A DNA stretch of 64,000 bases from Asanoa hainanensis. GTDB lineage: Bacteria; Actinomycetota; Actinomycetes; Mycobacteriales; Micromonosporaceae. Location: contig NZ_FZPH01000004.1 in assembly GCF_900188485.1 (NCBI RefSeq), forward strand, positions 5,304 through 69,303. Reading direction: 5' to 3'. Positions 26,114 through 38,331 of this stretch are shown here, one piece after another. The position numbers and the translations under genes are program-made. The notes under the pieces were generated by a model. The model was not told the origin of the DNA and ran no database searches. It was given only the letters and a program-made list of their open reading frames with translations. Positions within the stretch are counted from its first letter, which is position 1. Each line of letters opens with the position of its first letter.

Positions 26114-26800
26114 GTGAGTGCTATCGCTGTGTCGCATATCCGCACCTTCCACAACCGTGGGGGGCGGATGGGTGACCGGCATCACGATGCCCTGTCTCGG
26201 CTGTGGCCCCTGTACGGGTTGACGGTCTCGGACGACCCGCTCGACGCCCCGGCGTTGTTCGGTCGGTCCGCTCCCCTGGTCGTGGAGATCGGGTCCGGGA
26301 TGGGTGACGCGACGGCGGCGATGGCGGCGGCCGACCCCGACCGGGACTACCTGGCCGTCGAGGTGCACGTCCCGGGCATCGCGTCGCTGCTCAGCCACAT
26401 CGAGACGCGCGGGCTGCGAAACCTGCGGATCGCCCGCGGCGACGCTATCGAGCTCATGACGCACATGCTGCCCCCGGACCGGCTCGCCGCGGTGCACGTG
26501 TTCTTCCCCGACCCGTGGCCGAAGCTCAAGCACCACAAGCGGCGCATCATCCAGCCTTCTCACGTGGCTCTGCTGCGCTCCCGCCTGCTGCCCGGCACGG
26601 GTGTGCTGCACTGCGCCACCGACTGGGAGCCGTACGCTGCGTCGATGCTGTCAACCCTGTCGGCCGACCCCGAACTGGTGAACACCGCCGACGGCTACGC
26701 GCCCCGGCCCGCGTACCGCGCGGTCACACACTTCGAACGGCGCGCGGCCCGGCAGGGACGCGACGTGTTCGACCTCGTCTTCACCAGGCGCGCCGCGTGA
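26114..26800 (+). CDS. trmB: tRNA (guanine-N7-)-methyltransferase
   Basis: The 228-residue protein is a complete TrmB: HIRTFHNRGGRMGDRHHDAL at the N-terminus, the SAM-binding VVEIGSGMGDATAAMAAADP, the acidic DYLAVEVHVPG end of beta-2, HVFFPDPWPKLKHHKRRIIQ (catalytic/PDPWxK motif), and the closing RAVTHFERRAARQGRDVFDL. It methylates G46 in the variable loop of tRNAs. The GTG at 26114 has no Shine-Dalgarno and sits 6 nt after a -10-like hexamer, so initiation is probably leaderless. The stop overlaps the helicase GTG by 4 bp. Confidence 0.93.
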   Translation: MSAIAVSHIRTFHNRGGRMGDRHHDALSRLWPLYGLTVSDDPLDAPALFGRSAPLVVEIGSGMGDATAAMAAADPDRDYLAVEVHVPGIASLLSHIETRGLRNLRIARGDAIELMTHMLPPDRLAAVHVFFPDPWPKLKHHKRRIIQPSHVALLRSRLLPGTGVLHCATDWEPYAASMLSTLSADPELVNTADGYAPRPAYRAVTHFERRAARQGRDVFDLVFTRRAA

Positions 26801-29313
26801 ACCTCGCCGACCGGATCCCGGCCGACGTCACCCCCGACTCGCTCTTCGAGGCGTTCGCGGAGTGGGCGGGCGAGCGTGGACTGACCCTCTATCCGCACCA
26901 GGAAGAGGCGTTGATCGAGCTCGTCTCGGACGCCAACGTCATCCTGAACACGCCGACCGGCTCCGGGAAGAGCCTGGTCGCGACCGGTGCGCACTTCGCC
27001 GCGCTGGCCTACGGGCGACGCACCTTCTACACGGCGCCGATCAAGGCGCTCGTCTCCGAGAAGTTCTTCGACCTCTGCCGGATCTTCGGCGCGGAGAACG
27101 TCGGCATGCTGACCGGCGACGCCGCCGTCAACGAGACCGCGCCGATCATCTGCTGCACGGCCGAGATCCTGGCCAACATCGCGCTGCGCGACGGCTCGTA
27201 CGCCGATGTCGGTCAGGTCGTGATGGACGAGTTCCACTTCTACGCGGAGCCGGACCGGGGCTGGGCGTGGCAGGTGCCGCTGATCGAGCTTCCGCACACG
27301 CAGTTCCTGCTCATGTCGGCGACGCTCGGTGACGTGTCGCGGTTCGAGACGGACCTGACCCGGCGCACCGGCCGGCCGACCGCGGTGGTCAAGTCCGTCG
27401 ACCGCCCGGTGCCGCTGATGTACACCTACGCGGTCACCCCGATGCACGAGACGCTGCAGGAGCTGCTGGACACCCGGCAGGCACCCGTGTACGTCGTGCA
27501 CTTCACCCAGGTCGCCGCGTTGGAGCGGGCCCAGGCGCTGATGTCGGTGAACGTGGCCACCCGCGCCGAGAAGGACGCGATCGCCGCGGCCATCGGCAAC
27601 TTCCGCTTCTCGGCCGGGTTCGGGCGCACGCTGTCGCGGTTGGTGCGCCACGGGATCGGCGTGCACCACGCCGGCATGCTGCCCCGCTATCGGCGGTTGG
27701 TCGAGACGCTGGCCCAGGCCGGTCTGCTGAAAGTCATCTGCGGCACCGACACGCTCGGGGTCGGCATCAACGTGCCCATCCGGACCGTGTTGTTCACGGG
27801 ACTGTCCAAATACGACGGTGTACGGGTACGACTGCTCAAGGCGCGCGAGTTCCACCAGATCGCGGGCCGGGCCGGGCGGGCCGGGTTCGACACCATCGGC
27901 ACCGTGGTGGTGCAGGCGCCGGAACACGTCATCGACAACGAGCGGGCGTTGGCCAAGGCCGGGGACGACCCTAAGAAGCGGCGCAAGGTGGTGAAGAAGA
28001 AGCCGCCGGAGGGTTCGATCGGGTGGGGGCGGGCGACGTTCGACCGGCTGATCGAGGCCGAGCCCGAGCCGCTCCAGTCGTCGTTCCACGTCTCGCACGC
28101 CATGCTGCTCAACGTGATCGGCCGGCACGGAGACCCGTTCCAGGCGATGCGGCACCTGCTGACCGACAACCACGAGGAGCCGGCCGCCCAGCGCAAGCAC
28201 ATCAAGCGGGCGATCGCCATCTACCGGGCGCTGCTGGCCGGTGGCGTCGTCGAGCGGGTCTCACCGCCGGACGAGTCCGGCCGGACCGTGCGGCTGACCG
28301 TCGACCTGCAGGCCGACTTCGCGTTGAACCAGCCGCTGTCGCCGTTCGCGCTGGCCGCGATCGAGCTGCTGGACCAGGAGTCGCCCGACTACTTCCTCGA
28401 CGCGCTGTCCGTCATCGAGTCCACTCTGGACGACCCACGGCAGGTGCTGTCGGCGCAGCGGTTCAAGGCGCGCGGCGAGGCCGTGGCGGCGATGAAGTCC
28501 GAGGGGATCGAGTACGAGGAGCGGATGGAGCTTCTCGAGGAGGTCACCCACCCGCGTCCGCTGGCGGAGCTGCTCGAAGACGCGTACACGATGTATGCCC
28601 GTGGTCATCCCTGGGTCTCCGACCACGAGCTGGCGCCGAAGTCGGTGGTCCGCGACATGTACGAGCGGGCCATGACGTTCGGCGAGTACGTGTCGTTCTA
28701 CGGCCTGTCGCGGTCGGAGGGGCTGGTCCTGCGCTATCTGGCGGACGCGTACCACGCGCTGCGCCGCACGGTGCCCGAGGACTCGCGCACCGAGGAGCTG
28801 TCCGACCTGATCGAGTGGCTGGGCGAGCTGGTGCGGCAGGTCGACTCGAGCCTGCTGGACGAGTGGGAGCGGCTGCGCGATCCCGCGTCGGTGGACGAGG
28901 AGGTCGCGGACATCGAGCGGCCGCCGCCGGCGGTTACCCGGAACCGCCGGGCGTTCCGGGTGCTGGTGCGCAACGCGCTGTTCCGCCGGGTGGAGCTGGC
29001 TGCGTTGCGGGATTGGGAAGCTCTGGGCGAGCTCGACGGGGCGGACGGTTTCACTGCTTCGGAGTGGGCTGCGGCTTTGGAGCCCTACTTCGCCGAATAT
29101 GCCGATATTGGCGTCGGGCCGGATGCGCGCGGTCCGTCCCTGTTGCTGATCGACGAGAAACCCGACCGCTGGGACGTTCGGCAGATCTTCGACGACCCGG
29201 AGGAGGACCACGACTGGGCCATCGAGGCCACGGTCGACCTGGCCGCCTCAGACCTCGCGGGAGTGGCCGCGGTGACCGTAACCCGGGTGGGCACAGCGGC
29301 GAGTTTCGATTAG
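26797..29313 (+). CDS. Ski2-like DExH RNA helicase with DUF3516
   Basis: The 838-residue protein has an N-terminal helicase core: ALIELVSDANVILNTPTGSG with the P-loop Lys at 58, TAPIKALVSEKFFDL (motif Ia), DEFH at 144-147 (motif II), LMSATLGD (III), then ICGTDTLGVGINVPIRTVLF (V) and HQIAGRAGRAGFD (VI). A basic insert KKRRKVVKKKPPEG follows the core. The last 350 residues form the actinobacterial DUF3516 region. Ski2-like helicases unwind structured RNA, often in decay or ribosome maturation. Its GTG start overlaps the trmB stop, so the pair is co-translated. The 3' part uses noticeably more A/T-ending codons than the rest. Confidence 0.92.
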   Translation: MNLADRIPADVTPDSLFEAFAEWAGERGLTLYPHQEEALIELVSDANVILNTPTGSGKSLVATGAHFAALAYGRRTFYTAPIKALVSEKFFDLCRIFGAENVGMLTGDAAVNETAPIICCTAEILANIALRDGSYADVGQVVMDEFHFYAEPDRGWAWQVPLIELPHTQFLLMSATLGDVSRFETDLTRRTGRPTAVVKSVDRPVPLMYTYAVTPMHETLQELLDTRQAPVYVVHFTQVAALERAQALMSVNVATRAEKDAIAAAIGNFRFSAGFGRTLSRLVRHGIGVHHAGMLPRYRRLVETLAQAGLLKVICGTDTLGVGINVPIRTVLFTGLSKYDGVRVRLLKAREFHQIAGRAGRAGFDTIGTVVVQAPEHVIDNERALAKAGDDPKKRRKVVKKKPPEGSIGWGRATFDRLIEAEPEPLQSSFHVSHAMLLNVIGRHGDPFQAMRHLLTDNHEEPAAQRKHIKRAIAIYRALLAGGVVERVSPPDESGRTVRLTVDLQADFALNQPLSPFALAAIELLDQESPDYFLDALSVIESTLDDPRQVLSAQRFKARGEAVAAMKSEGIEYEERMELLEEVTHPRPLAELLEDAYTMYARGHPWVSDHELAPKSVVRDMYERAMTFGEYVSFYGLSRSEGLVLRYLADAYHALRRTVPEDSRTEELSDLIEWLGELVRQVDSSLLDEWERLRDPASVDEEVADIERPPPAVTRNRRAFRVLVRNALFRRVELAALRDWEALGELDGADGFTASEWAAALEPYFAEYADIGVGPDARGPSLLLIDEKPDRWDVRQIFDDPEEDHDWAIEATVDLAASDLAGVAAVTVTRVGTAASFD

Positions 29314-29371: not shown

Positions 29372-29998
29372 GTGACCTCACCCGCCGTCCCGTACGCCAC
29401 TCTTCTCGCGTTCGCCCGCTACGTCGACCGCATCGGCCCGGCCAAGGCCACGTTCGTCGGCGGCCTACGCAAACAGCGCGAGTCCCGCTCGGGCTTCAAC
29501 CCCCACGGCCAACTCATCAAGGCCCTCAAAAGCGACATCGCCTTCCACGGCGGAGGCCGCCACCTCCACGCGGTGGTCAACGAGGTCAAACCGCGCTGGA
29601 AGCCCCTCTACGAGGCCCTGCTACCGGGCGCCCTGACCTACCTGGGCACCCTGCCCAAAGACACGGACCTAGCCCAAACCCGAGACGCGATCGCCATGCT
29701 GGGCGACCTACCGGTAAAGATCAACCCCCACTTCGGCCTACGCCACGCGGACGGCCAGGCCGAAGCCGTGCGACTACACATGGACGAGCAGCCCCCCAGC
29801 CCCGAAACCGTGATGGCCACGCTGCACCTGATGGGCCGCCACATGGACCAGGTCCTCCCCCACGCCACCCCCACCCTGGTCGACCTCCGCCGCGGCATCG
29901 TCCACCGCCCCGACCCGTCGGTGAAGACCGCGCAGGTCGAGCAGTGGCTGGCCGGCGAAGCGGCCGCCTTCCGCGCGACCTGGTCGGTAGCGGCGTAA
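29372..29998 (+). CDS. uncharacterised cytoplasmic protein, 208 aa
   Basis: I do not recognise a family. The protein is soluble, basic at the N-terminus (FVGGLRKQRESRSGFNPHGQ) and helical, with no cysteine and no signal. Features that look conserved are AFARYVDRIGPAKATFVGGL, GGRHLHAVVNEVKPRWKPLY, PVKINPHFGLRHADGQAEAV, and the C-terminal VEQWLAGEAAAF. GGAGGG precedes the GTG by 6 nt, and codon use (strong third-position C/G) supports a real gene. It follows the helicase gene by 58 bp and could belong to the same transcript. A hairpin after the stop may terminate it. Confidence 0.75.
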   Translation: MTSPAVPYATLLAFARYVDRIGPAKATFVGGLRKQRESRSGFNPHGQLIKALKSDIAFHGGGRHLHAVVNEVKPRWKPLYEALLPGALTYLGTLPKDTDLAQTRDAIAMLGDLPVKINPHFGLRHADGQAEAVRLHMDEQPPSPETVMATLHLMGRHMDQVLPHATPTLVDLRRGIVHRPDPSVKTAQVEQWLAGEAAAFRATWSVAA

Positions 29999-30015
29999 GA
30001 GCACGCGCCGCCGGC

Positions 30016-30037
30016 CGGAAGCGCCCGCGCGCTTCCG
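30016..30037 (+). terminator. GC-rich hairpin after the 208-aa gene
   Basis: CGGAAGCGC (30016-30024) pairs perfectly with GCGCTTCCG (30029-30037) around a 4-nt loop. It lies 18 nt after the stop codon and has no T-run, as is common for high-GC actinobacterial terminators. Confidence 0.5.
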
Positions 30038-30282
30038 CCGGCGAGGGCGGCGCGCCGATCGGTCCCCGCGGCGGCAGCCCGACCCCGAACGCCGTCCGGC
30101 GAGACCGACAACGCCACGCCCTGCCAGTCATCGCAGACCGCTGCCACAACCCGAGCGGCGTCCGGCGAGACCGCGCCGCGCGAGCAGGGCGGCACCAGCC
30201 TGTCGCGTTCCGGCGCAGCACAAACCTGGCCGCCGCCAGGCTTTCCAGGCCACTCGATCAGGCCCCGAACCCAACAGACCGC

Positions 30283-30472
30283 ATTCACGATCGGATGCGA
30301 ATTCCGACCCAGCCCCGTTGCGCCCGTGACCGAGATCCGCCAGCCCAGAACCCACCCGGGGGTTCATGATCGGAATGCGAATCCCGAACCCAGCCAGCGC
30401 GTTCATGATCGGGTGCGCGAGATCTGGGATTCGGCCGGCCATGTTCATGATCGGGTGCGCGTGGTCTGGAGA
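30283..30472. repeat. four degenerate copies of a TTCATGATCGG element
   Basis: Copies start at 30283 (ATTCACGATCGGATGCGAAT), 30362 (GTTCATGATCGGAATGCGAA), 30401 (GTTCATGATCGGGTGCGCGA) and 30443 (GTTCATGATCGGGTGCGCGT). The first two are followed by a shared CCGA...CCCAGCC stretch, the last two by CTGG. Spacing is 79, 39 and 42 bp. The core TCATGA/TGATC overlaps small palindromes. Uneven spacing and divergence rule out CRISPR. It looks like a family of short interspersed intergenic repeats. Confidence 0.75.
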
Positions 30473-30881
30473 GCCGGCGGCGCGTCGCCCAGACCTGATG
30501 CACACGATCATCTGCGGACCGCGCCAGGCTGTCGGGGACAACACAGGATCAAGCACCCCACACCGCCTCTGCCACGGTCGACAACCGCCGAACGGTTCGC
30601 GTCGGCGACTGTCGGCGACGTGCTCCGGCGCCGCAGTCGGTGGGCCCGGGCGGATCCGTCGACAGGCCCGTCGGGGGCGGGACACCACCGCAGCGCGCGA
30701 TCGGGCTCGACACTTCGGAAAAGCGACCCAGCTGATCCGTCACGAGTGCGGCAGACCTTCAGCCGTAGGGAAACACCCGATTCGTAGGGGGTGCGGCCGG
30801 CCATAGCGTCGAGGTGTGTCGGTGACGGCCGCTCGGGGTGGGAGGCCGCATGGGCACGACCGAAACGACGGAGGCGTGGTC

Positions 30882-31394
30882 ATGCGGCGGGTTGTTGTGT
30901 CGTTGTTGCTGGTGGGTGCGTTGCTGGCGCCGGCGGGTTGCGGCAGTTCGGGCGACGGCGGCGAGACCTCGCCAGCCGCCGACAGCGCGGTCGCCGACGA
31001 GGGCGGCGCGGCCGGGGCGATGTCGACGACCGTGCCCGGCTGTCCGTTCACGGCGGCCCAGGTCACCGAGCTGGTCGGGCAGCCGATGAACGACGAGGGG
31101 AACTGCCTGTTCGGGGACGGCAAGGGTGTGGCCAGTCTGACCGTCACCGTGTCGTCGGCGTTGGCCGGTGAGACCACCTACGACTACCAGCGTGAGACCG
31201 CCGGCAAGTCGTTTCCGAAAGTCAGCGACCTCGGCAAGGGGAAGAAGTCCTATCTGGCCGTCAAGGACATCCAGGCCGAGGCGGCGCTGATCAGCGACCA
31301 GGGTGCGTACACCCTGATCATGAGTAGTTTCGGTTTCGACGAGGCCAAGTACGACCAGACCATGAACGCCCTGATTGACGTGATCCTCGGATGA
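30882..31394 (+). CDS. secreted lipoprotein 1 of a three-gene operon (DUF3558-like)
   Basis: The 170-residue protein has a lipoprotein signal ending GALLAPAGC with Cys20. After a 25-residue Gly/Ser/Ala linker, the domain starts with PGCPFTAAQVTELVGQPMND and has a second cysteine in EGNCLFGDGKG. The pair is spaced like the disulphide of DUF3558-type lipoproteins. Remaining strands include VASLTVTVSSALAG and QGAYTLIMSSFGFD. GGAGG lies 7 nt before the ATG at 30882. An in-frame GTG at 30816 would add a non-signal extension and was rejected. The stop overlaps the next gene (ATGA). Confidence 0.82.
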   Translation: MRRVVVSLLLVGALLAPAGCGSSGDGGETSPAADSAVADEGGAAGAMSTTVPGCPFTAAQVTELVGQPMNDEGNCLFGDGKGVASLTVTVSSALAGETTYDYQRETAGKSFPKVSDLGKGKKSYLAVKDIQAEAALISDQGAYTLIMSSFGFDEAKYDQTMNALIDVILG

Positions 31395-31888
31395 GGCGCC
31401 GCCTGGTCGTTCTTGCCCTCACGCTCACGACATTGGCCGGATGCGGCAACGAGCCGACACCAGCACCGCCGGCGCCCGCCGTGCCGCCGGTCACTACCGC
31501 GCCGCTGGTCGACGAGGCACCCGCCCTGCCCGACGCCTGCGAGCTGATCAAACAGGCCGACGCCGAGAAGCTGGCCGGCACGCCGCTCGACCCGCCGTTG
31601 CCTGTCAAGGACACCTGTACGTACACCGGGCCGGTGACCGGGCCCACCGCGCAGGTCGAGGTCTACGTCGGCGACGGCGCCAAGAAGTTTCTCGACATCG
31701 ATCGGGAGCTCGGGCACGCGTTCACCGAGCTGGCCGGCATCGGTGACGAGGCCCACCTCGAGGACGGGACCGTCTTCTTCGCCAAAGGTGGCGTCTGGGT
31801 GAGCATCCGGCTGGTCCGGCTGGTCGACCCCGCGGAGACCCGCGATCCGCTGGAGGCGGCCGCCCGCACCGCCGCGGGCCGCATGTGA
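31391..31888 (+). CDS. secreted lipoprotein 2 of a three-gene operon (DUF3558-like)
   Basis: The 165-residue protein has the signal RRRLVVLALTLTTLAGC with lipidated Cys18, a proline-rich linker, and a domain beginning LPDACELIKQADAEKLAGTP with a partner cysteine in KDTCTYTGPVTG. The layout C-x-L/F...A....L.G.P.......C.Y/F parallels lipoprotein 1, so the two are probably diverged paralogues. The middle part (AQVEVYVGDGAKKFLDIDRE, AGIGDEAHLEDGTVFFAKGG) resembles DUF3558 proteins. Both ends overlap neighbouring genes by 4 bp, so the three lipoproteins are made in coordination. Function unknown. Confidence 0.82.
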   Translation: MRRRLVVLALTLTTLAGCGNEPTPAPPAPAVPPVTTAPLVDEAPALPDACELIKQADAEKLAGTPLDPPLPVKDTCTYTGPVTGPTAQVEVYVGDGAKKFLDIDRELGHAFTELAGIGDEAHLEDGTVFFAKGGVWVSIRLVRLVDPAETRDPLEAAARTAAGRM

Positions 31889-33291
31889 GACGGACAATAG
31901 CGGCCGCGGTCGCCGGGCTGCTCCTGCTCGCCGGTTGCGCCAACGACAGCGCACCGTCCGATGAGGACCTCAGCTACGGTGCCGCGCCGAAGCCCGATGG
32001 CGTGACCCTCCAGCCGGACGTCGTCATCGTCGGTGGCGGCGGCCGGTCGGTGCGGTCCGTCACCGCCGACGGTCTGTCCTGGCGGATCGACGCCGACGCG
32101 CCGCACGCCGACGACCTCGCTCCCGGCAAGGTCATGTTCGTCACCGAGCGTGGGGTCGGCCGCGTGCTCGACATCGCTCCCGCCGGCGACGACCTGCTGG
32201 TCACCGTCGGGCCCGTGGACATCACCGAGGTGGTCCGGGACGGCACGTTCGAGCGCGCCGACGTCGCGCTGGAGGACCCGGTCGTCTATCCCGCCGGCGA
32301 GCCGTTCTGGGCCGACGAGCGACCGAAACCACCCAGCACGTACGGGCGGTCCGTGCCGGTGCAGCGCCGCACGGACCAACCCACCCAGCCGGGGCGGCAG
32401 CGCGGCGGCGAGGTCACGACGCGGGCGCTCGGCTACACCGTCTACCCGACCTGCTGCACCAACGGCGCCGGGGTTCATTTCAGTTACGACGACGGCGGTG
32501 TGCGCCTCGTCGGCACCGTCACGTTGACCAGCAAGGCGCCCAGGGCCGCGTTCCACCTGGCCATCGGCGGTGGCACGGTGACCCGCGCCGAGTTGGAGAT
32601 CAGCGGCGGGTTCGGCCTGAAGGCCGAGTTCGAGGCCGGGATCAAGGACGGGAAGAACCACAAGAAGGTCTTCCCGATCGCTGCCGACCTGTCGTTTCCG
32701 ATCGGCTCGCTGGCCGGCATCCCGCTGTCGTTCACCGTGAGCCAGACGCTGGGCGTCACCACCGCGTTCGGCGCCAAGGTCGGCACGGTCAAGGGATCCG
32801 GCGAGTTCTCGCTGGCGGGCTCGCTCGGCTTCGGGTACGCGAACGGCACGTTCGGGCCGCATGTCAAGCACGACTTCCAGCGCCGGTCGTCCCTGCTCAA
32901 CTCCCTGACCGGCGTACCCGTCGGCGTCATGGGTCTGGTCATCGCGCACGGAGTCAGGTTCACCGTCGGGATCGGCGCGTTCCTGTTCAAGGCGGGGGTC
33001 TACTTCGAACTGATCACCAGGTACGGGTCGACGCTGGGTTCCGCCCTCGGTGCGCCGTACGCCCAATGTCGTGGTGTCGCCATCGGGGTGGACGCGGCGT
33101 TCGGGGTCGGTTACACGATCCTGGACCCGGTGGTCAAAGTGATCAACTCGTTCCTGAGCCTGCTGAAACCGTTCAAAGTGGTCGACATACCACCGATCAA
33201 GAACTCGGGCGGCATCCGCTCGACGAGCGAGGTCTACACGAACGAGGAGGTCATCCCCGACGTCGCCGTCTGTGGGCACGTCCCGGCATAG
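31885..33291 (+). CDS. large secreted lipoprotein 3, beta-rich, unknown family
   Basis: The 468-residue protein starts at a GTG overlapping the previous stop and has a lipoprotein signal GLLLLAGC (Cys18). Residues 40-130 form a compact beta domain (LQPDVVIVGGGGRSVRSVTA, GRVLDIAPAGDDLLVTVG). A basic, Pro/Gln-rich linker follows (about 150-180). The C-terminal 280 residues are a long run of alternating hydrophobic/polar strands rich in glycine (VRLVGTVTLTSKAPRAAFHL, TVTRAELEISGGFGLKAEFE, SLAGSLGFGYANGTFGPHVK). A CC pair in YPTCCTNGAG and two late cysteines may form disulphides. The strands look like a sheet or barrel that could carry lipid. No family is recognised. Confidence 0.8.
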   Translation: MRRTIAAAVAGLLLLAGCANDSAPSDEDLSYGAAPKPDGVTLQPDVVIVGGGGRSVRSVTADGLSWRIDADAPHADDLAPGKVMFVTERGVGRVLDIAPAGDDLLVTVGPVDITEVVRDGTFERADVALEDPVVYPAGEPFWADERPKPPSTYGRSVPVQRRTDQPTQPGRQRGGEVTTRALGYTVYPTCCTNGAGVHFSYDDGGVRLVGTVTLTSKAPRAAFHLAIGGGTVTRAELEISGGFGLKAEFEAGIKDGKNHKKVFPIAADLSFPIGSLAGIPLSFTVSQTLGVTTAFGAKVGTVKGSGEFSLAGSLGFGYANGTFGPHVKHDFQRRSSLLNSLTGVPVGVMGLVIAHGVRFTVGIGAFLFKAGVYFELITRYGSTLGSALGAPYAQCRGVAIGVDAAFGVGYTILDPVVKVINSFLSLLKPFKVVDIPPIKNSGGIRSTSEVYTNEEVIPDVAVCGHVPA

Positions 33292-33312
33292 CCCCGTGAG
33301 ATCATCGCCCCT

Positions 33313-36009
33313 GTGGAGTGGGGCGTGGTCGGTCGCGACACCATCCTCGCCGACGCTCGGCAGACCCTGACCGAGGGCACGTCCGTGCTGCTCGAAGGCG
33401 ACGCCGGCATCGGCAAGACGGCGGTCTGGCGCGCCCTCGTCGACGACGCCCGGCGCCGCGACTGCCTGGTGCTCGCCTGCGCGCCCACCGAGGCGGAGGC
33501 GGCCCTGCCGTTCGCCGCCCTCGCCGACCTGATCCGGCCGCTGCGCGACCTCGTGCCGGCGCTGCCCCCACCGCAACGAGCCGCCGCCGACGCGGTGCTG
33601 CTCACCGACTTCCCCGAGGAGGTGGTCGACGAGCGCGCGATCGGCGCGGCCACCCGATCGCTGCTGGAACGGGCGGCCCGACCCCTGCTCGTGGCCGTGG
33701 ACGACGCGCCCTGGCTGGACCAGCCCAGCGAGCGGGCGATCCGGTTCGCGCTGCGCCGGCTGGCACCCCGGCCGCCGGCGCTGGTCGCCTGCCGCACCAG
33801 CGGCACCGCGCCGACCGCGGCCGCCCTCGACCTCGACGACGCCCGGCGGGTGGCCCTGGCCCCGCTCGGCGCCGGCGCCCTCCACCAGATCATCCGGGAC
33901 CGCCTCGGCGGCACGCTGAGCCGGTCGCTGCTGGCCCGCATCGCCCGCGACGCCGGCGGCAACCCGCTGCTCGCGATCGAGCTGGCCCGCGCGGTGCTGC
34001 GGCTGCCGCGACCACCCGGCCCGGGCGAGGATCTGCCGGTCGTGGCGTCGATGCGCCAACTGGTCGCGGACGCCACCCGCGCGCTCCCGCCGGCCGGCCA
34101 GGCCGCGGTGCGACTGGCCGCGCTGCTCACCGTGCCCACTGTGGACGATCTGGTGTCGGCCGGCGTAGTGGCGGCCGACCTCGATCCCGCCGAGGAGGCC
34201 GGCCTGCTCACGGTGACCGGCAACGGCATCTCGTTCGCCCATCCGGTCTACGCGAGCACGGTCCGCGCCGGTATCCCCGCCGCGACCCGGCGCCGGATGC
34301 GGCGGACGTTGGCCGGCGCGGTCGCCGACCCGGACGAGCGGGCCCGCCAACTCGCCCAGTGCACGACCGGGCCCGACCCGGCGGTCGCCGCCGAACTGGC
34401 CGCCGCCGCCCACCGGCAACGGGCCCGCGGCGCGCCCGCGGTTGCCGCGGACCTCTACGAGCGGGCCGCGGAGCTGGCCGGCCCCGACGCCGACGAATGG
34501 CGGTTGGCCGCGGTCAGGTGCCGGTTCGACTGTGGCGACTACACCGCCGCGGGCGTGGCCGCCGACGCCGCCGCGCGGGCGCTGACCGGCGATGCCCGCG
34601 CGGAGGCGCTGCTGTTGCGGGCGATGGTCGCCTGGGGCGCCGACGACCTGGGCGGCGCGGTCGAGGCCGCCGAGGCGAGCCTGGCCGCAGCCGGCACCGG
34701 AAGCCCGCTGGAAGGTCGGATCCAGGCCCACCTGAGCATGTTCCAGGAACTCCCGGAACGCGGCCGGGACCACGCCCACGCCGCGATCGCCTTACTCAGC
34801 GAGGAAGGCAGCGAGCGCCCCCTGCTCTGCGCGGCGTTGCTGAACCTCTTCTTCCACGAGGTGCGCGGCGGCGTGGCGCGCACCGATCTGCTCGACCGGG
34901 CGCTGGCCCTGGAGGACGGCACCCCTTCCTGGCTGTCGGGCACCATCCCCGCGATCTGGTGGAAGGGCGTCGACGACCACGGGCGGGCGCGCGACCGGTT
35001 GCACGGGCTGCTGGCCCACGCCACCGCGCTCGGCGACGAGCCGTGGCAGCACGAGGTGCTCACCCACCTCGGCGAGACCGAGCTGCTGGCCGGCCGGTTC
35101 ACCGCAGCGGAGAAGCACATCGCCGCCGCCCGCGAGCTCGGTGAGATGCTCGGCACCGGGTTGGTGGGCGAGACCTGGCTGGGCGGCACCCTGGACGCGT
35201 ACCGGGGCCGCCTCGACGCCGCCGACGCCGTCGTCGAAGCCGGCCTGACGCGCGGCCGGGCCAACGACGACCCCTGGTGCCTGCGCATCCACCTCCACCT
35301 CGCCGCTTTCGTGCAGCTGTCCCGGGGGCGACCGGCCGAGGCGGCGACAACCTACCGGGAGCTGGCCACGCTCCTCGGCGAGCTCGGCGTGGTCGAGCCG
35401 ATCACCCAACGCTTCGAGCCGGACTGGATCGAGGCCTGTGTCGGCGCCGGTGACCTGGACACCGCACGGCGCGTGCTACAGCGGTTGACCGACCGGCACG
35501 ACCGGCTGCCAAGGCCCTGGACGACGCTCGGCCTGGCCCGCAGCCGCGTCCTGCTCGACACCGCGACCGGCGCCGACCCCCTGCCCGCTCTCGCCGCGCT
35601 CGCCGATGCCCGCGCGGCGGTGCCCGCCGACGTGCTGCCGGTCGACCGGGCGCGGTGCCTGCTGGTCGCCGGGATGGCCCACCGCCGTGGCAGGCGCAAG
35701 CGCGAGGCCCGGGCGGCCCTGGAGACGGCGGCGGCCGAGTTCACCGCGCTCGGCGCGGCCGCCTTCGCCGACCGGGCCGCGGCGGAGCTGACCCGCACCA
35801 CCGGTCGGACCGCGTCGGCGACCGAGCTGACGCCCACCGAGCTGCGGGTGGCCCGGCTGGCAGCGCAGGGCCAAACCAACCGGGCGATCGCCGACGCGCT
35901 GTTCATCAGCCCGAAGACGGTGGAGGCCAACCTGGCCCGCGCGTACCGCAAACTCGGCATCACCAACCGCGCCCAGCTCGCGGTCACGATGACCCGCCTG
36001 CCGGACTGA
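33313..36009 (+). CDS. LAL-type LuxR regulator with AAA ATPase domain
   Basis: The 898-residue protein has an N-terminal ATPase: VVGRDTILADARQTLTEGTS, then Walker A GDAGIGKTAV (about 32-41) and Walker B-like PLLVAVDDAPWLDQPSERAI (about 121-140). The centre is a TPR-like run of alanine-rich helix pairs (about 330-800). The last 65 residues are a LuxR helix-turn-helix: LTPTELRVARLAAQGQTNRA, IADALFISPKTVEANLARAY and RKLGITNRAQLAVTM. Members of this group regulate carbon use or secondary metabolism. The gene follows the lipoprotein operon by 21 bp and might control it, but that is only proximity. Confidence 0.92.
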   Translation: MEWGVVGRDTILADARQTLTEGTSVLLEGDAGIGKTAVWRALVDDARRRDCLVLACAPTEAEAALPFAALADLIRPLRDLVPALPPPQRAAADAVLLTDFPEEVVDERAIGAATRSLLERAARPLLVAVDDAPWLDQPSERAIRFALRRLAPRPPALVACRTSGTAPTAAALDLDDARRVALAPLGAGALHQIIRDRLGGTLSRSLLARIARDAGGNPLLAIELARAVLRLPRPPGPGEDLPVVASMRQLVADATRALPPAGQAAVRLAALLTVPTVDDLVSAGVVAADLDPAEEAGLLTVTGNGISFAHPVYASTVRAGIPAATRRRMRRTLAGAVADPDERARQLAQCTTGPDPAVAAELAAAAHRQRARGAPAVAADLYERAAELAGPDADEWRLAAVRCRFDCGDYTAAGVAADAAARALTGDARAEALLLRAMVAWGADDLGGAVEAAEASLAAAGTGSPLEGRIQAHLSMFQELPERGRDHAHAAIALLSEEGSERPLLCAALLNLFFHEVRGGVARTDLLDRALALEDGTPSWLSGTIPAIWWKGVDDHGRARDRLHGLLAHATALGDEPWQHEVLTHLGETELLAGRFTAAEKHIAAARELGEMLGTGLVGETWLGGTLDAYRGRLDAADAVVEAGLTRGRANDDPWCLRIHLHLAAFVQLSRGRPAEAATTYRELATLLGELGVVEPITQRFEPDWIEACVGAGDLDTARRVLQRLTDRHDRLPRPWTTLGLARSRVLLDTATGADPLPALAALADARAAVPADVLPVDRARCLLVAGMAHRRGRRKREARAALETAAAEFTALGAAAFADRAAAELTRTTGRTASATELTPTELRVARLAAQGQTNRAIADALFISPKTVEANLARAYRKLGITNRAQLAVTMTRLPD

Positions 36010-36039
36010 ATCGGGTGGCGGCGCGGCCCGCCGCACCCG

Positions 36040-36045
36040 TAGGGT
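36040..36045 (+). promoter_or_regulatory. -10 element for leaderless GNAT gene
   Basis: TAGGGT ends 6 nt before the ATG at 36052 and no Shine-Dalgarno is present. This suggests transcription starts at the start codon. The -35 is unclear. Confidence 0.45.
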
Positions 36046-36051
36046 CCGCGC

Positions 36052-36786
36052 ATGCCCGACGAAGAACTGCGCGCCGGCGACGGCACGGTGCTGGCCCGGT
36101 TCCGGTCCAGGGACGACGAAGGCGTACGCGTCGCCGCCGAGCTGCGCCCCGAGCCCGGCGTGCCGGTGGCCCGGGTGGCCGCACAGGCGTTGCGGGACCT
36201 GGCCGGGCAACGGCTGGAGACGCCCGACGACGACCTGGCCGCCGCGCTCGGTGTCCCGCTGGAGCGGTCCGCGACAGAGCTGCGCCACGACCTGGCCGAC
36301 CTACCCGAGCCGGTGGCGCTGCCGGCCGGCTGGACCCTCGCGGAAGCCGGCTGGGACGACGACCTGGCCGAGGCGGCCGCGGCGGCCTATCCCCCGGGCC
36401 ACCCCGACGGCGGCTGGTCGGAGAACGACACCACGTCCGTCCGCGACATGTTCGAGCGGAACGACCCCGTGCCGCCGCTGGCATCGGCGTCGGCCCGGCT
36501 GGTCGACCCCGACGGGCGCAGCGCCGGCCACGTGCTGTGCGCCGGCCCGGTGCCGTGGACCGACAACACCTGCGCGTGGATGCTCAACATCGCCGTCGGA
36601 CCGCGGGCGCAGGGCCGCGGCTTCGGCCGCGCGCTGCTGACCTACGCGCTGCACGGCACCCGCGCCGCCGGCCTGCCGAGCCTGGACCTGTCCGTCGCCG
36701 ACGGCAACCCCGCCCGCCGCCTCTACGACGCGGCCGGCTTCCGACCCGTCGTCCGGGTGCTCACCGTGCACCTGCCGGAGGCCTGA
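36052..36786 (+). CDS. GNAT family N-acetyltransferase
   Basis: The 244-residue protein has a C-terminal GNAT domain (about 85-240). Markers are WTLAEAGWDDDLAEAAAAAY at the beginning, CAWMLNIAVGPRAQGRGFGR with the acetyl-CoA pyrophosphate loop (QGRGFG) and LLTYALHGTRAAGLPSLDLS, and NPARRLYDAAGFRPVVRVLT as the last strand-helix pair. The first 80 residues are an extra domain (LRPEPGVPVARVAAQALRDL) without a known match. It acetylates an unknown amine. The start is leaderless by inspection. The next GNAT-like gene begins 1 bp after its stop. Confidence 0.88.
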   Translation: MPDEELRAGDGTVLARFRSRDDEGVRVAAELRPEPGVPVARVAAQALRDLAGQRLETPDDDLAAALGVPLERSATELRHDLADLPEPVALPAGWTLAEAGWDDDLAEAAAAAYPPGHPDGGWSENDTTSVRDMFERNDPVPPLASASARLVDPDGRSAGHVLCAGPVPWTDNTCAWMLNIAVGPRAQGRGFGRALLTYALHGTRAAGLPSLDLSVADGNPARRLYDAAGFRPVVRVLTVHLPEA

Positions 36787-36787
36787 C

Positions 36788-37519
36788 ATGGAGATCGTGA
36801 CGCGGGCCGACCGGCCTGACCTCGACGAACAGGCCGCGGTGGTGTTCCGGGAGCGCTGGCCGGAGTTCATCTTCCACGACGACGTACCCAAGAAGTATCT
36901 GGCTCGGGTCGAACAGTTCTTCTCCCGCTACGACATCATGGTGCTCGACGACGAGGGCGCCGTGGTCGCCGGCGGCTGGGGCGTGCCGCTGGCCTGGAGC
37001 GGAAAGACCGAAGACCTGCCGTCCGGGTACGACGACGCGATGGTCCAAGCGGTCGAGGGCCACGAGGCCGGCACCCCGCCGACCACCCTGAGCTTCATGG
37101 CGGCCGCCGTCAGCTCCAAGCACGACAAGCGCGGCCTGGCCACCACCGTCCTATCCGGACTGACCCAGCGGGCACGCGAAGACGGCCTGACCCACGTCAT
37201 CGCGCCGCTGCGGCCGACCTGGAAACACCGCTACCCCCTGGTCCCGATGGCCGAGTACGCCGGCTGGACCCGCGCCGACGGCCTCTCCGTCGACCCGTGG
37301 ATCCGCACCCACCAACGCATGGGCGCCCGCATCCTCGCCCCGGCCGCCCGCTCGATGGTCATCGAGGGCACGGTCGCGGAATGGGAGAGCTGGACGGAGA
37401 TGGCGTTCCCTGTCACCGGCGACTACGTGGTCCCGGACGCCCTGAACCTGGTGCACATCGACCGCGAGACCGACCGAGGCAGCTACGTCGAGGAGAACCT
37501 CTGGGTCCAGCACGCTTAG
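36788..37519 (+). CDS. GNAT-superfamily acetyltransferase-like protein
   Basis: The 243-residue protein has a GNAT-like fold: EIVTRADRPDLDEQAAVVFR at the N-terminus, FSRYDIMVLDDEGAVVAGGW, and the SFMAAAVSSKHDKRGLATTV acetyl-CoA loop (degenerate Q/RxxGxG/A as KRGLAT). A helix LSGLTQRAREDGLTHVIAPL and a long C-terminal part (WIRTHQRMGARILAPAARSM) follow. The region after residue 150 resembles acyl-transferring relatives that act on larger substrates. It is almost certainly in one operon with the preceding acetyltransferase. The 3' end overlaps the convergent DUF427 gene by 4 bp. The substrate is unknown. Confidence 0.78.
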   Translation: MEIVTRADRPDLDEQAAVVFRERWPEFIFHDDVPKKYLARVEQFFSRYDIMVLDDEGAVVAGGWGVPLAWSGKTEDLPSGYDDAMVQAVEGHEAGTPPTTLSFMAAAVSSKHDKRGLATTVLSGLTQRAREDGLTHVIAPLRPTWKHRYPLVPMAEYAGWTRADGLSVDPWIRTHQRMGARILAPAARSMVIEGTVAEWESWTEMAFPVTGDYVVPDALNLVHIDRETDRGSYVEENLWVQHA

Positions 37520-38331
37520 CTGACGCCGAACTCGTCGCGTAGGGAGCGGACCACCGCGCCGCCTGGGCGGTCGCGGAGTTTGCCGTCTACCGTGACGTCG
37601 AGTAGGTCGTCGTAGAACGCGACCAGGCCTGCGATCGGCATCGCGTCCGGCAGGGGCGCGAGGTAGGACCAGACCACATTGGACCGCGAGTCCGTCGACC
37701 AGTACGACGCCTCGCCCTTGTAAGGGCAGTAGGACACCTGGTCGCTCGCCGTCAGTGGAGCGACCACGTCCTCCCGCGGCAGGTAGAACCGCACCGGCAG
37801 GTTCGTCTCGAACACCAGCACCGCGCGGGTGGTCTCGGCCAGCAGCGTGCCGCCGTCCTCGATCCGGATCCGCCGGGAGCTGGCCCGGGCGTCCACCCGG
37901 TGGTACGGATCGCGCGGGTGCGCGTGGATCCGCTCGTCCTCCTCGAACCACTCGAACGCGTCGAAGTCGAGGACGACGTAGTCGGTCAGGTCGGGGTCGG
38001 CGGGGCGGAACCCCGCGTCGGGTCGGGTCAGGCCGCCGGCCGCGATCGTCAGCGACCGGCCGGCGGTGGAGTGCACGGAGAACGGGATGCCGGGGTGCAG
38101 GAACCCCGGGCCGCCGGGCATCACCTCGTCGCCCGGGGTGACCGTCGCCCGCAGGTCGGTCGCCGGCACCGCGTACGTCGGGACGATCCGCCGGGGCTCC
38201 CAGACCAGCACCGCGTCGGTGGTGTCCACGATGGTCTCGCCGCCGAGGACGGCACGGACCCGCTTCTCGGTCGGTTCGTGGCGCAGCTCCTTGAAGCGCT
38301 GCGCCATGGCGTCACGCATCCGGGTACTCAT
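37516..38331 (-). CDS. protein with two DUF427 domains
   Basis: The 271-residue protein contains two DUF427 modules. The first (about 20-110) starts KRVRAVLGGETIVDTTDAVL and has VWEPRRIVPTYAVPATDL. The second (about 155-250) starts SRRIRIEDGGTLLAETTRAV and continues with LPVRFYLPREDVVAPLTASD and SYCPYKGEASYWS. Between them lies an acidic loop (DAFEWFEEDERIHAHPRDPY). The domain is a small beta fold frequent in actinobacteria and of unknown activity; the C-terminal copy carries the more typical CPYKG motif. The ATG at 38331 was chosen over one 6 codons upstream. It lies 18 bp after the DUF4331 gene, so the two share a transcript. Confidence 0.9.
   Translation of the reverse strand: MSTRMRDAMAQRFKELRHEPTEKRVRAVLGGETIVDTTDAVLVWEPRRIVPTYAVPATDLRATVTPGDEVMPGGPGFLHPGIPFSVHSTAGRSLTIAAGGLTRPDAGFRPADPDLTDYVVLDFDAFEWFEEDERIHAHPRDPYHRVDARASSRRIRIEDGGTLLAETTRAVLVFETNLPVRFYLPREDVVAPLTASDQVSYCPYKGEASYWSTDSRSNVVWSYLAPLPDAMPIAGLVAFYDDLLDVTVDGKLRDRPGGAVVRSLRDEFGVS

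Follow-up and report, generated by a model that had tools for sequence, protein, structure and literature searches.

The window (the whole stretch of 64,000 nucleotides analyzed here) came from an Asanoa-type genome of Micromonosporaceae, with the nearest named homologues in Asanoa siamensis and A. iriomotensis. Four genes followed one another on the plus strand: gene A (30882..31394; ATG start), for a 170-amino acid lipoprotein distantly related to the product of the next gene; gene B (31391..31888; ATG start), for a 165-amino acid DUF3558-like lipoprotein; gene C (31885..33291; GTG start), for a 468-amino acid lipoprotein with a conserved N-terminal β-domain and a large amphipathic β-domain; and, starting 21 nt downstream of C, a gene for an 898-amino acid large ATP-binding LuxR (LAL) regulator (33313..36009). 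The first-pass annotation had described three secreted lipoproteins whose genes overlap by 4 bp each, and its coordinates were matched exactly (ATGA at 31391 for A/B; GTGA at 31885 for B/C). A, B, and C each open with a lipoprotein-type signal peptide and a lipobox cysteine (...LLAPAGC, ...TLAGC, and ...LLAGC, respectively), features also found in homologues, and are therefore predicted lipoproteins; the proline at position -3 in A is unusual and recurs in many A homologues. Since homologues were present in named species, the three frames were regarded as real genes. Further upstream, a DEAD-box helicase with a DUF3516 domain (26515-29313) showed no sign of belonging with these genes.

B matched DUF3558 (PF12079) with an E-value of 1.5e-4 (22.2 bits), below the gathering cut-off of 34.1, and DUF3558 was matched by 52 of the 62 A/B-type relatives (window B included) at E ≤ 0.01, with a best E-value of 7.3e-11; no other sequence family was matched at E ≤ 0.01 among these 62 members. 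Because B itself fell under the cut-off while its relatives reached 7.3e-11, we refer to it as DUF3558-like and not as a filed member of PF12079. On the other hand, no Pfam family over cut-off was found for A, and no PF12079 match was listed at E ≤ 5. A profile-profile comparison between A and B (P = 2e-4, prob 46, 108 columns) pointed weakly to a remote relationship of the two, and A-type homologues adjoin B in many relatives. Thus, "two DUF3558-like paralogues", as the pair had been called, was appropriate for B and generous for A. Similar to DUF3558 lipoproteins, the A/B-type relatives are short and have two further conserved cysteines, whereas the window genes differ in that their group is linked with C and, in many cases, with the LAL regulator. 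Cys18 of B was invariant in alignment A5, from which 10 of 18 A-type matches (whose start could not be placed by the filter) and several, mostly weak, B matches were absent. Two DUF3558-like domains were also found fused in a single lipoprotein directly upstream of C, at L084 (3764-4855; 363 amino acids) and L090 (6493-7656; 387 amino acids).

The AF2 model of B (pLDDT 90.3, pTM 0.75) was superimposed by VIA-align on the sensor domain of PknH (4esq) with a Z-score of 10.0 (110 aligned, rmsd 2.9), on TiME (7cu8) with 9.1, and on Mog1 with 7.4, while Foldseek alone gave no match at E ≤ 0.001 (best, TiME: E 0.029, prob 0.97). B is accordingly predicted to have the PknH-sensor/Mog1-PsbP fold shared by PknH, TiME (Rv3705c), and Mog1-PsbP proteins. 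Unlike PknH, B carries no kinase domain, and its only family match at the sequence level is DUF3558. A PknH-like sensor domain in Rv3705c and several lipoproteins of Mycobacterium tuberculosis is mentioned in PMC4118811.

Every row of alignment A1 (28 rows) had the lipobox cysteine of C (Cys18), and its conservation was at least 90% in alignment A2 (61 rows). A2 included 60 of the 64 extracted C proteins; four further loci were without the anchor and four were skipped. A pattern search found no lipobox in 9 of the 81 C ORFs of one set and 5 of the 64 of another, including proteins from Gammaproteobacteria and Gemmatimonadales metagenome-assembled genomes (MAGs). The N-terminal domain (residues 28-124; 31966..32256), delimited in alignment A3, was the best conserved part of the protein, and AF2 secondary structure, strand alternation, and alignment A4 outlined a C-terminal β-domain (residues 182-464; 32428..33276) with long amphipathic strands and one late helix. 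The window protein matched neither Pfam nor NCBIfam families above their cut-offs, the best Pfam E-value among 61 homologues was 0.014, a PDB sequence search gave nothing better than E 0.035, and 30 C N-terminal domains had no match in PHROGs. The view that C belongs to no recognized family was therefore upheld, none of the Pfam matches among the 61 members being convincing.

The AF2 model of C (pLDDT 86.1, pTM 0.85) was mostly β, with the signal helix, short helices, and the late helix. None of its 438 Foldseek matches against the PDB reached E ≤ 0.001. The best VIA-align matches were the outer-membrane barrels TamA, BamA, and LptD with Z ≤ 6.7, a level that the tool calls common, and a β-barrel identity is not claimed. 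A known enzyme fold, named beforehand in the first-pass annotation as the structural outcome that would speak against it, was not found by structure prediction, and this candidate was dropped because no Pfam, NCBIfam, PDB sequence, or Foldseek match was convincing. The long amphipathic β-region that had been proposed was borne out by the model: 13 of the 19 C-terminal strands alternated by at least 2 Kyte-Doolittle units (61 homologues; no null model), an alternation that is expected for any β-sheet. This alternation fits a predicted hydrophobic face and is no proof of lipid binding; since the fold of C was unmatched, we infer a cavity rather than see one.

Neighborhoods of C were compared in two sets that share genomes. 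The first comprised 81 loci: the window itself, a single region from outside the family (G054), and 79 regions of family members, which represent 78 of the 96 further family genomes with a match (one genome contributing two regions). The second comprised 72 named loci, from which L179, lacking a C profile match, was left out. An A/B-type gene lay at most 2.5 kb from C in 60 of the 81 and 49 of the 72 loci, and was upstream in 55 cases and elsewhere in 5 (first set), or upstream in 36 and elsewhere in 17 (named set). In distant relatives (Pseudonocardia, Catenulispora, Streptomyces, Planotetraspora, and Chloroflexi-labelled MAGs), B was found upstream or downstream of C; B matches were weak (1e-6 to 1e-9) in the Gemmatimonadales MAG and were absent within 2.5 kb in the Gammaproteobacteria MAG, and such MAG labels may be wrong. 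This variation in gene order argues against mere hitchhiking. C lay away from A/B in the remaining 21 of the 81 loci, 19 of which belonged to genomes with a strong B elsewhere (exceptions, G207 and G135).

Beyond C, A/B, the LAL regulator, and one small protein, neighbor clusters were each found in at most 6 of 73 loci; ten neighbor clusters were annotated by Pfam, one of which had no family. Because neither an enzyme nor a permease was a constant partner in the neighborhoods of C, a binding or signalling device appears more likely than a catalytic or transport system. The small protein (core of approximately 80-100 amino acids, weakly SCO4226-like) was conserved at 18 named loci, L144 (4476-4772) among them, where it usually immediately precedes the first lipoprotein gene and lies close to the LAL gene; its best match in the source genome had an E-value of 0.15.

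Among 354 genomes of the family, C was present in 95 and the B group in 96, with both in 91 and neither in 254. The cut-offs were E ≤ 1e-10 for C (the weaker matches in G068 and G259 are outside the 95), and E ≤ 1e-40 for B and for a segment of the LAL protein. Neighborhoods of C supplied the sequences for the B profile, which was then scanned genome-wide, and its cut-off was set after seeing a gap in the scores between the weakest member (2.4e-46) and the next match (2.5e-30). Fisher p-values for the co-occurrence of C and B ignore shared ancestry and are unsafe as probabilities. Four genomes had C without B (G029, 80% complete; G135; G207; G251), and five of the 96 had B without C (G194, G195, G225, G287, and G367). 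Grouped by genus label, C occurred in 15 genera, 14 of which also had B, and B was found in no genus that lacked C. In Asanoa, four of six genomes carried C, B, and LAL, while G001 and G004 had none of the three at the cut-offs used. The proposal that these genes belong together was strengthened by the B group in 91 of the 95 C genomes; rare co-occurrence in other genomes, which had been named as the contrary outcome of a phylogenetic profile, was not observed. Since the three lipoprotein genes and the LAL gene tend to be present or missing together in related soil bacteria, they probably work as one unit.

Outside the family, C was sporadic: an N-terminal domain match at E ≤ 1e-6 was found in only one of 296 phylum-wide genomes, the source genome itself, and a wide distribution of C was rejected, although several further genera of actinobacteria include named relatives. 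The C homologue of G207, one of the genomes without a strong B, was split into three frames (L103, 4961-6467), reflecting either a decaying module or a sequencing error. A conserved motif of B was considered as a C-binding interface and was unsupported: its persistence in the five genomes with B and without C speaks against such a surface.

The 898-amino acid LAL protein resembled MalT-type regulators in its N-terminal AAA_16 domain (55.2 bits against a cut-off of 32.6) and C-terminal GerE helix-turn-helix (58.9 against 23.5), and qualified as an LAL by both domains. It differed in that its orthologue group travels with secreted lipoproteins; known LALs sit with catabolic or antibiotic genes. 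A 301-residue segment gave one match each in 72 of the 354 genomes, all at least 57% identical, and of these 72 genomes, 71 had B and 67 had C. Among the named loci, members of the LAL cluster directly followed C at nine, at distances of 12-48 nt, and preceded it in the same orientation at 14 (L161 is shorter and may not be an orthologue); where C was elsewhere, a strong LAL match adjoined A/B at 12 of 15 loci, and LAL adjoined B in four of the five genomes without C. Thus, the three genes previously described as an operon did co-occur, but an orthologous LAL regulator accompanies the lipoproteins, which makes the unit larger than these three genes. The orthologue was absent from 28 of the 95 C genomes and 25 of the 96 B genomes, and BTAD/TPR regulators were found in 7 of the 72 named loci. 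Since BTAD/TPR proteins occur beside the same lipoproteins, the unit is best described as A/B, C, and often LAL, with a seemingly exchangeable regulator. At L177 (1396-5779), a BTAD/TPR regulator stood in a row with C and B, with a gap of 3 nt between B and the regulator.

Coupling of the three lipoprotein genes was less conserved than their joint occurrence. In three other Asanoa genomes, the 4-bp overlap between B and C was kept, whereas A and B were separated by 3, 7, and 9 nt, so that translational coupling of all three genes is not a conserved design. "Stoichiometric" export, as had been suggested from the overlaps, was weakened by these gaps and by the separation of C from A/B at 21 of 81 loci. 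In the long gap upstream of A (30283-30459), a 17-nt motif, GTTCATGATCGGNTGCG, occurred three times, with a looser fourth copy near 30363. As many matches were given by 3 of 100 shuffles, three of the five matches in the genome lie here, and an exact search did not find the 11-nt core in the other Asanoa loci compared; as an operator the motif is a weak candidate, and it may have arisen by chance. Rfam had no match in 29900-37600.

These features bear on the alternative that the lipoproteins belong to one regulon and act independently, with no common complex. C sometimes lies far from A/B, the A-B overlap is unconserved within Asanoa, and there are five genomes with a strong B and no C, four of which have LAL beside B; because C is missing from these 5 of the 96 B genomes, B and LAL can evidently exist without it. 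The joint presence of C and B in the 354 genomes was nevertheless near-complete in both directions, also where LAL was missing, and we consider independent action unlikely.

In our main reading, to which we assign a probability of roughly 0.45, A, B, C, and LAL would form one functional module, in which a ligand-binding complex anchored to the membrane is under LAL control. That A/B, C, and LAL function together is well supported by the comparison of genomes, on which it rests, whereas we infer the physical contact among A, B, and C and the hydrophobic nature of the ligand. The LAL protein, an activator of the MalT kind, would sense an intracellular signal and switch on the lipoprotein genes. 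After export and lipidation, A, B, and C would stay attached to the outside of the plasma membrane, which is at best what the "surface" location proposed earlier can mean. C would be the core, its large β-domain, with one hydrophobic strand face, providing a hydrophobic binding surface or cavity, and B and A (the PknH-sensor/Mog1-PsbP fold being predicted for B only) may be accessory subunits, with a sensor or adaptor role, that dock on C or on the ligand of C. The ligand that the unit would capture or present would be external and probably hydrophobic.

Alternatively, C may be a stand-alone lipid carrier, in which a divergent N-terminal MCE domain and a lipid groove formed by the β-sheet shuttle lipids without a YrbE permease or ATPase. 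A PDB profile search with the N-terminal domain gave sub-threshold matches to the MCE protein YebT (E 0.05-0.09), and comparison by hhalign with MCE domains from 29 loci gave a P-value of 5.2e-5 (prob 67) over 47 ungapped columns (C residues ~62-109), or 1.6e-4 when the full C alignment was used. Controls remained at P ≥ 0.053 (34 other alignments), P ≥ 0.0035 (60 column shuffles), and 0.36 and 0.74 (reversed). MceE proteins are lipoprotein-anchored, and C is similar in this respect. On the other hand, because MCE was picked after a weak PDB match, the P-value would be insignificant over a whole database, and only half a domain was aligned. Pfam MlaD (PF02470) matched none of the 61 C proteins at E ≤ 1 and had no match in the source genome, and no MCE chain was among the 50 VIA-align matches listed. 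The likeness of C to MCE proteins (MlaD, YebT, and MceA-F) is thus a suggestive profile match and no more than a lead, and C differs from them in having no Pfam match and a large further β-domain attached; a carrier of this type appears improbable. It is more doubtful still that C founds a new family, combining a divergent MCE-type domain with a new, large β-domain in a lipid-anchored protein, which together with two PknH-sensor-fold lipoproteins would act as a permease-free lipid carrier or receptor on actinobacteria with a single membrane, under the control of a dedicated LAL. An envelope sensor, in which A, B, and C perceive an outside cue and the signal reaches LAL via some membrane step, is quite unlikely: the predicted fold of B is that of an extracellular sensor domain and a large regulator (LAL, or BTAD/TPR) recurs near the lipoproteins, but no membrane transducer was found among the ten neighbor-cluster proteins searched with Pfam, MalT-type activators respond to cytoplasmic ligands, and a quarter of the B genomes (the 25 of 96 given above) have no LAL orthologue.

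No earlier description of the A-B-C-LAL module, and no paper with a title related to DUF3558, was found in the literature searched, which covered few subscription journals. Under the reading as a ligand-binding module, an anonymous operon becomes a defined, testable unit inherited across many Micromonosporaceae, composed of two genes so far labelled merely as encoding a "domain of unknown function", a protein (C) without a Pfam family or matched fold, and a regulator. If this is true, DUF3558-type lipoproteins would gain a partner and a regulator, and the module may represent a new way of handling lipids or other ligands outside the cell.
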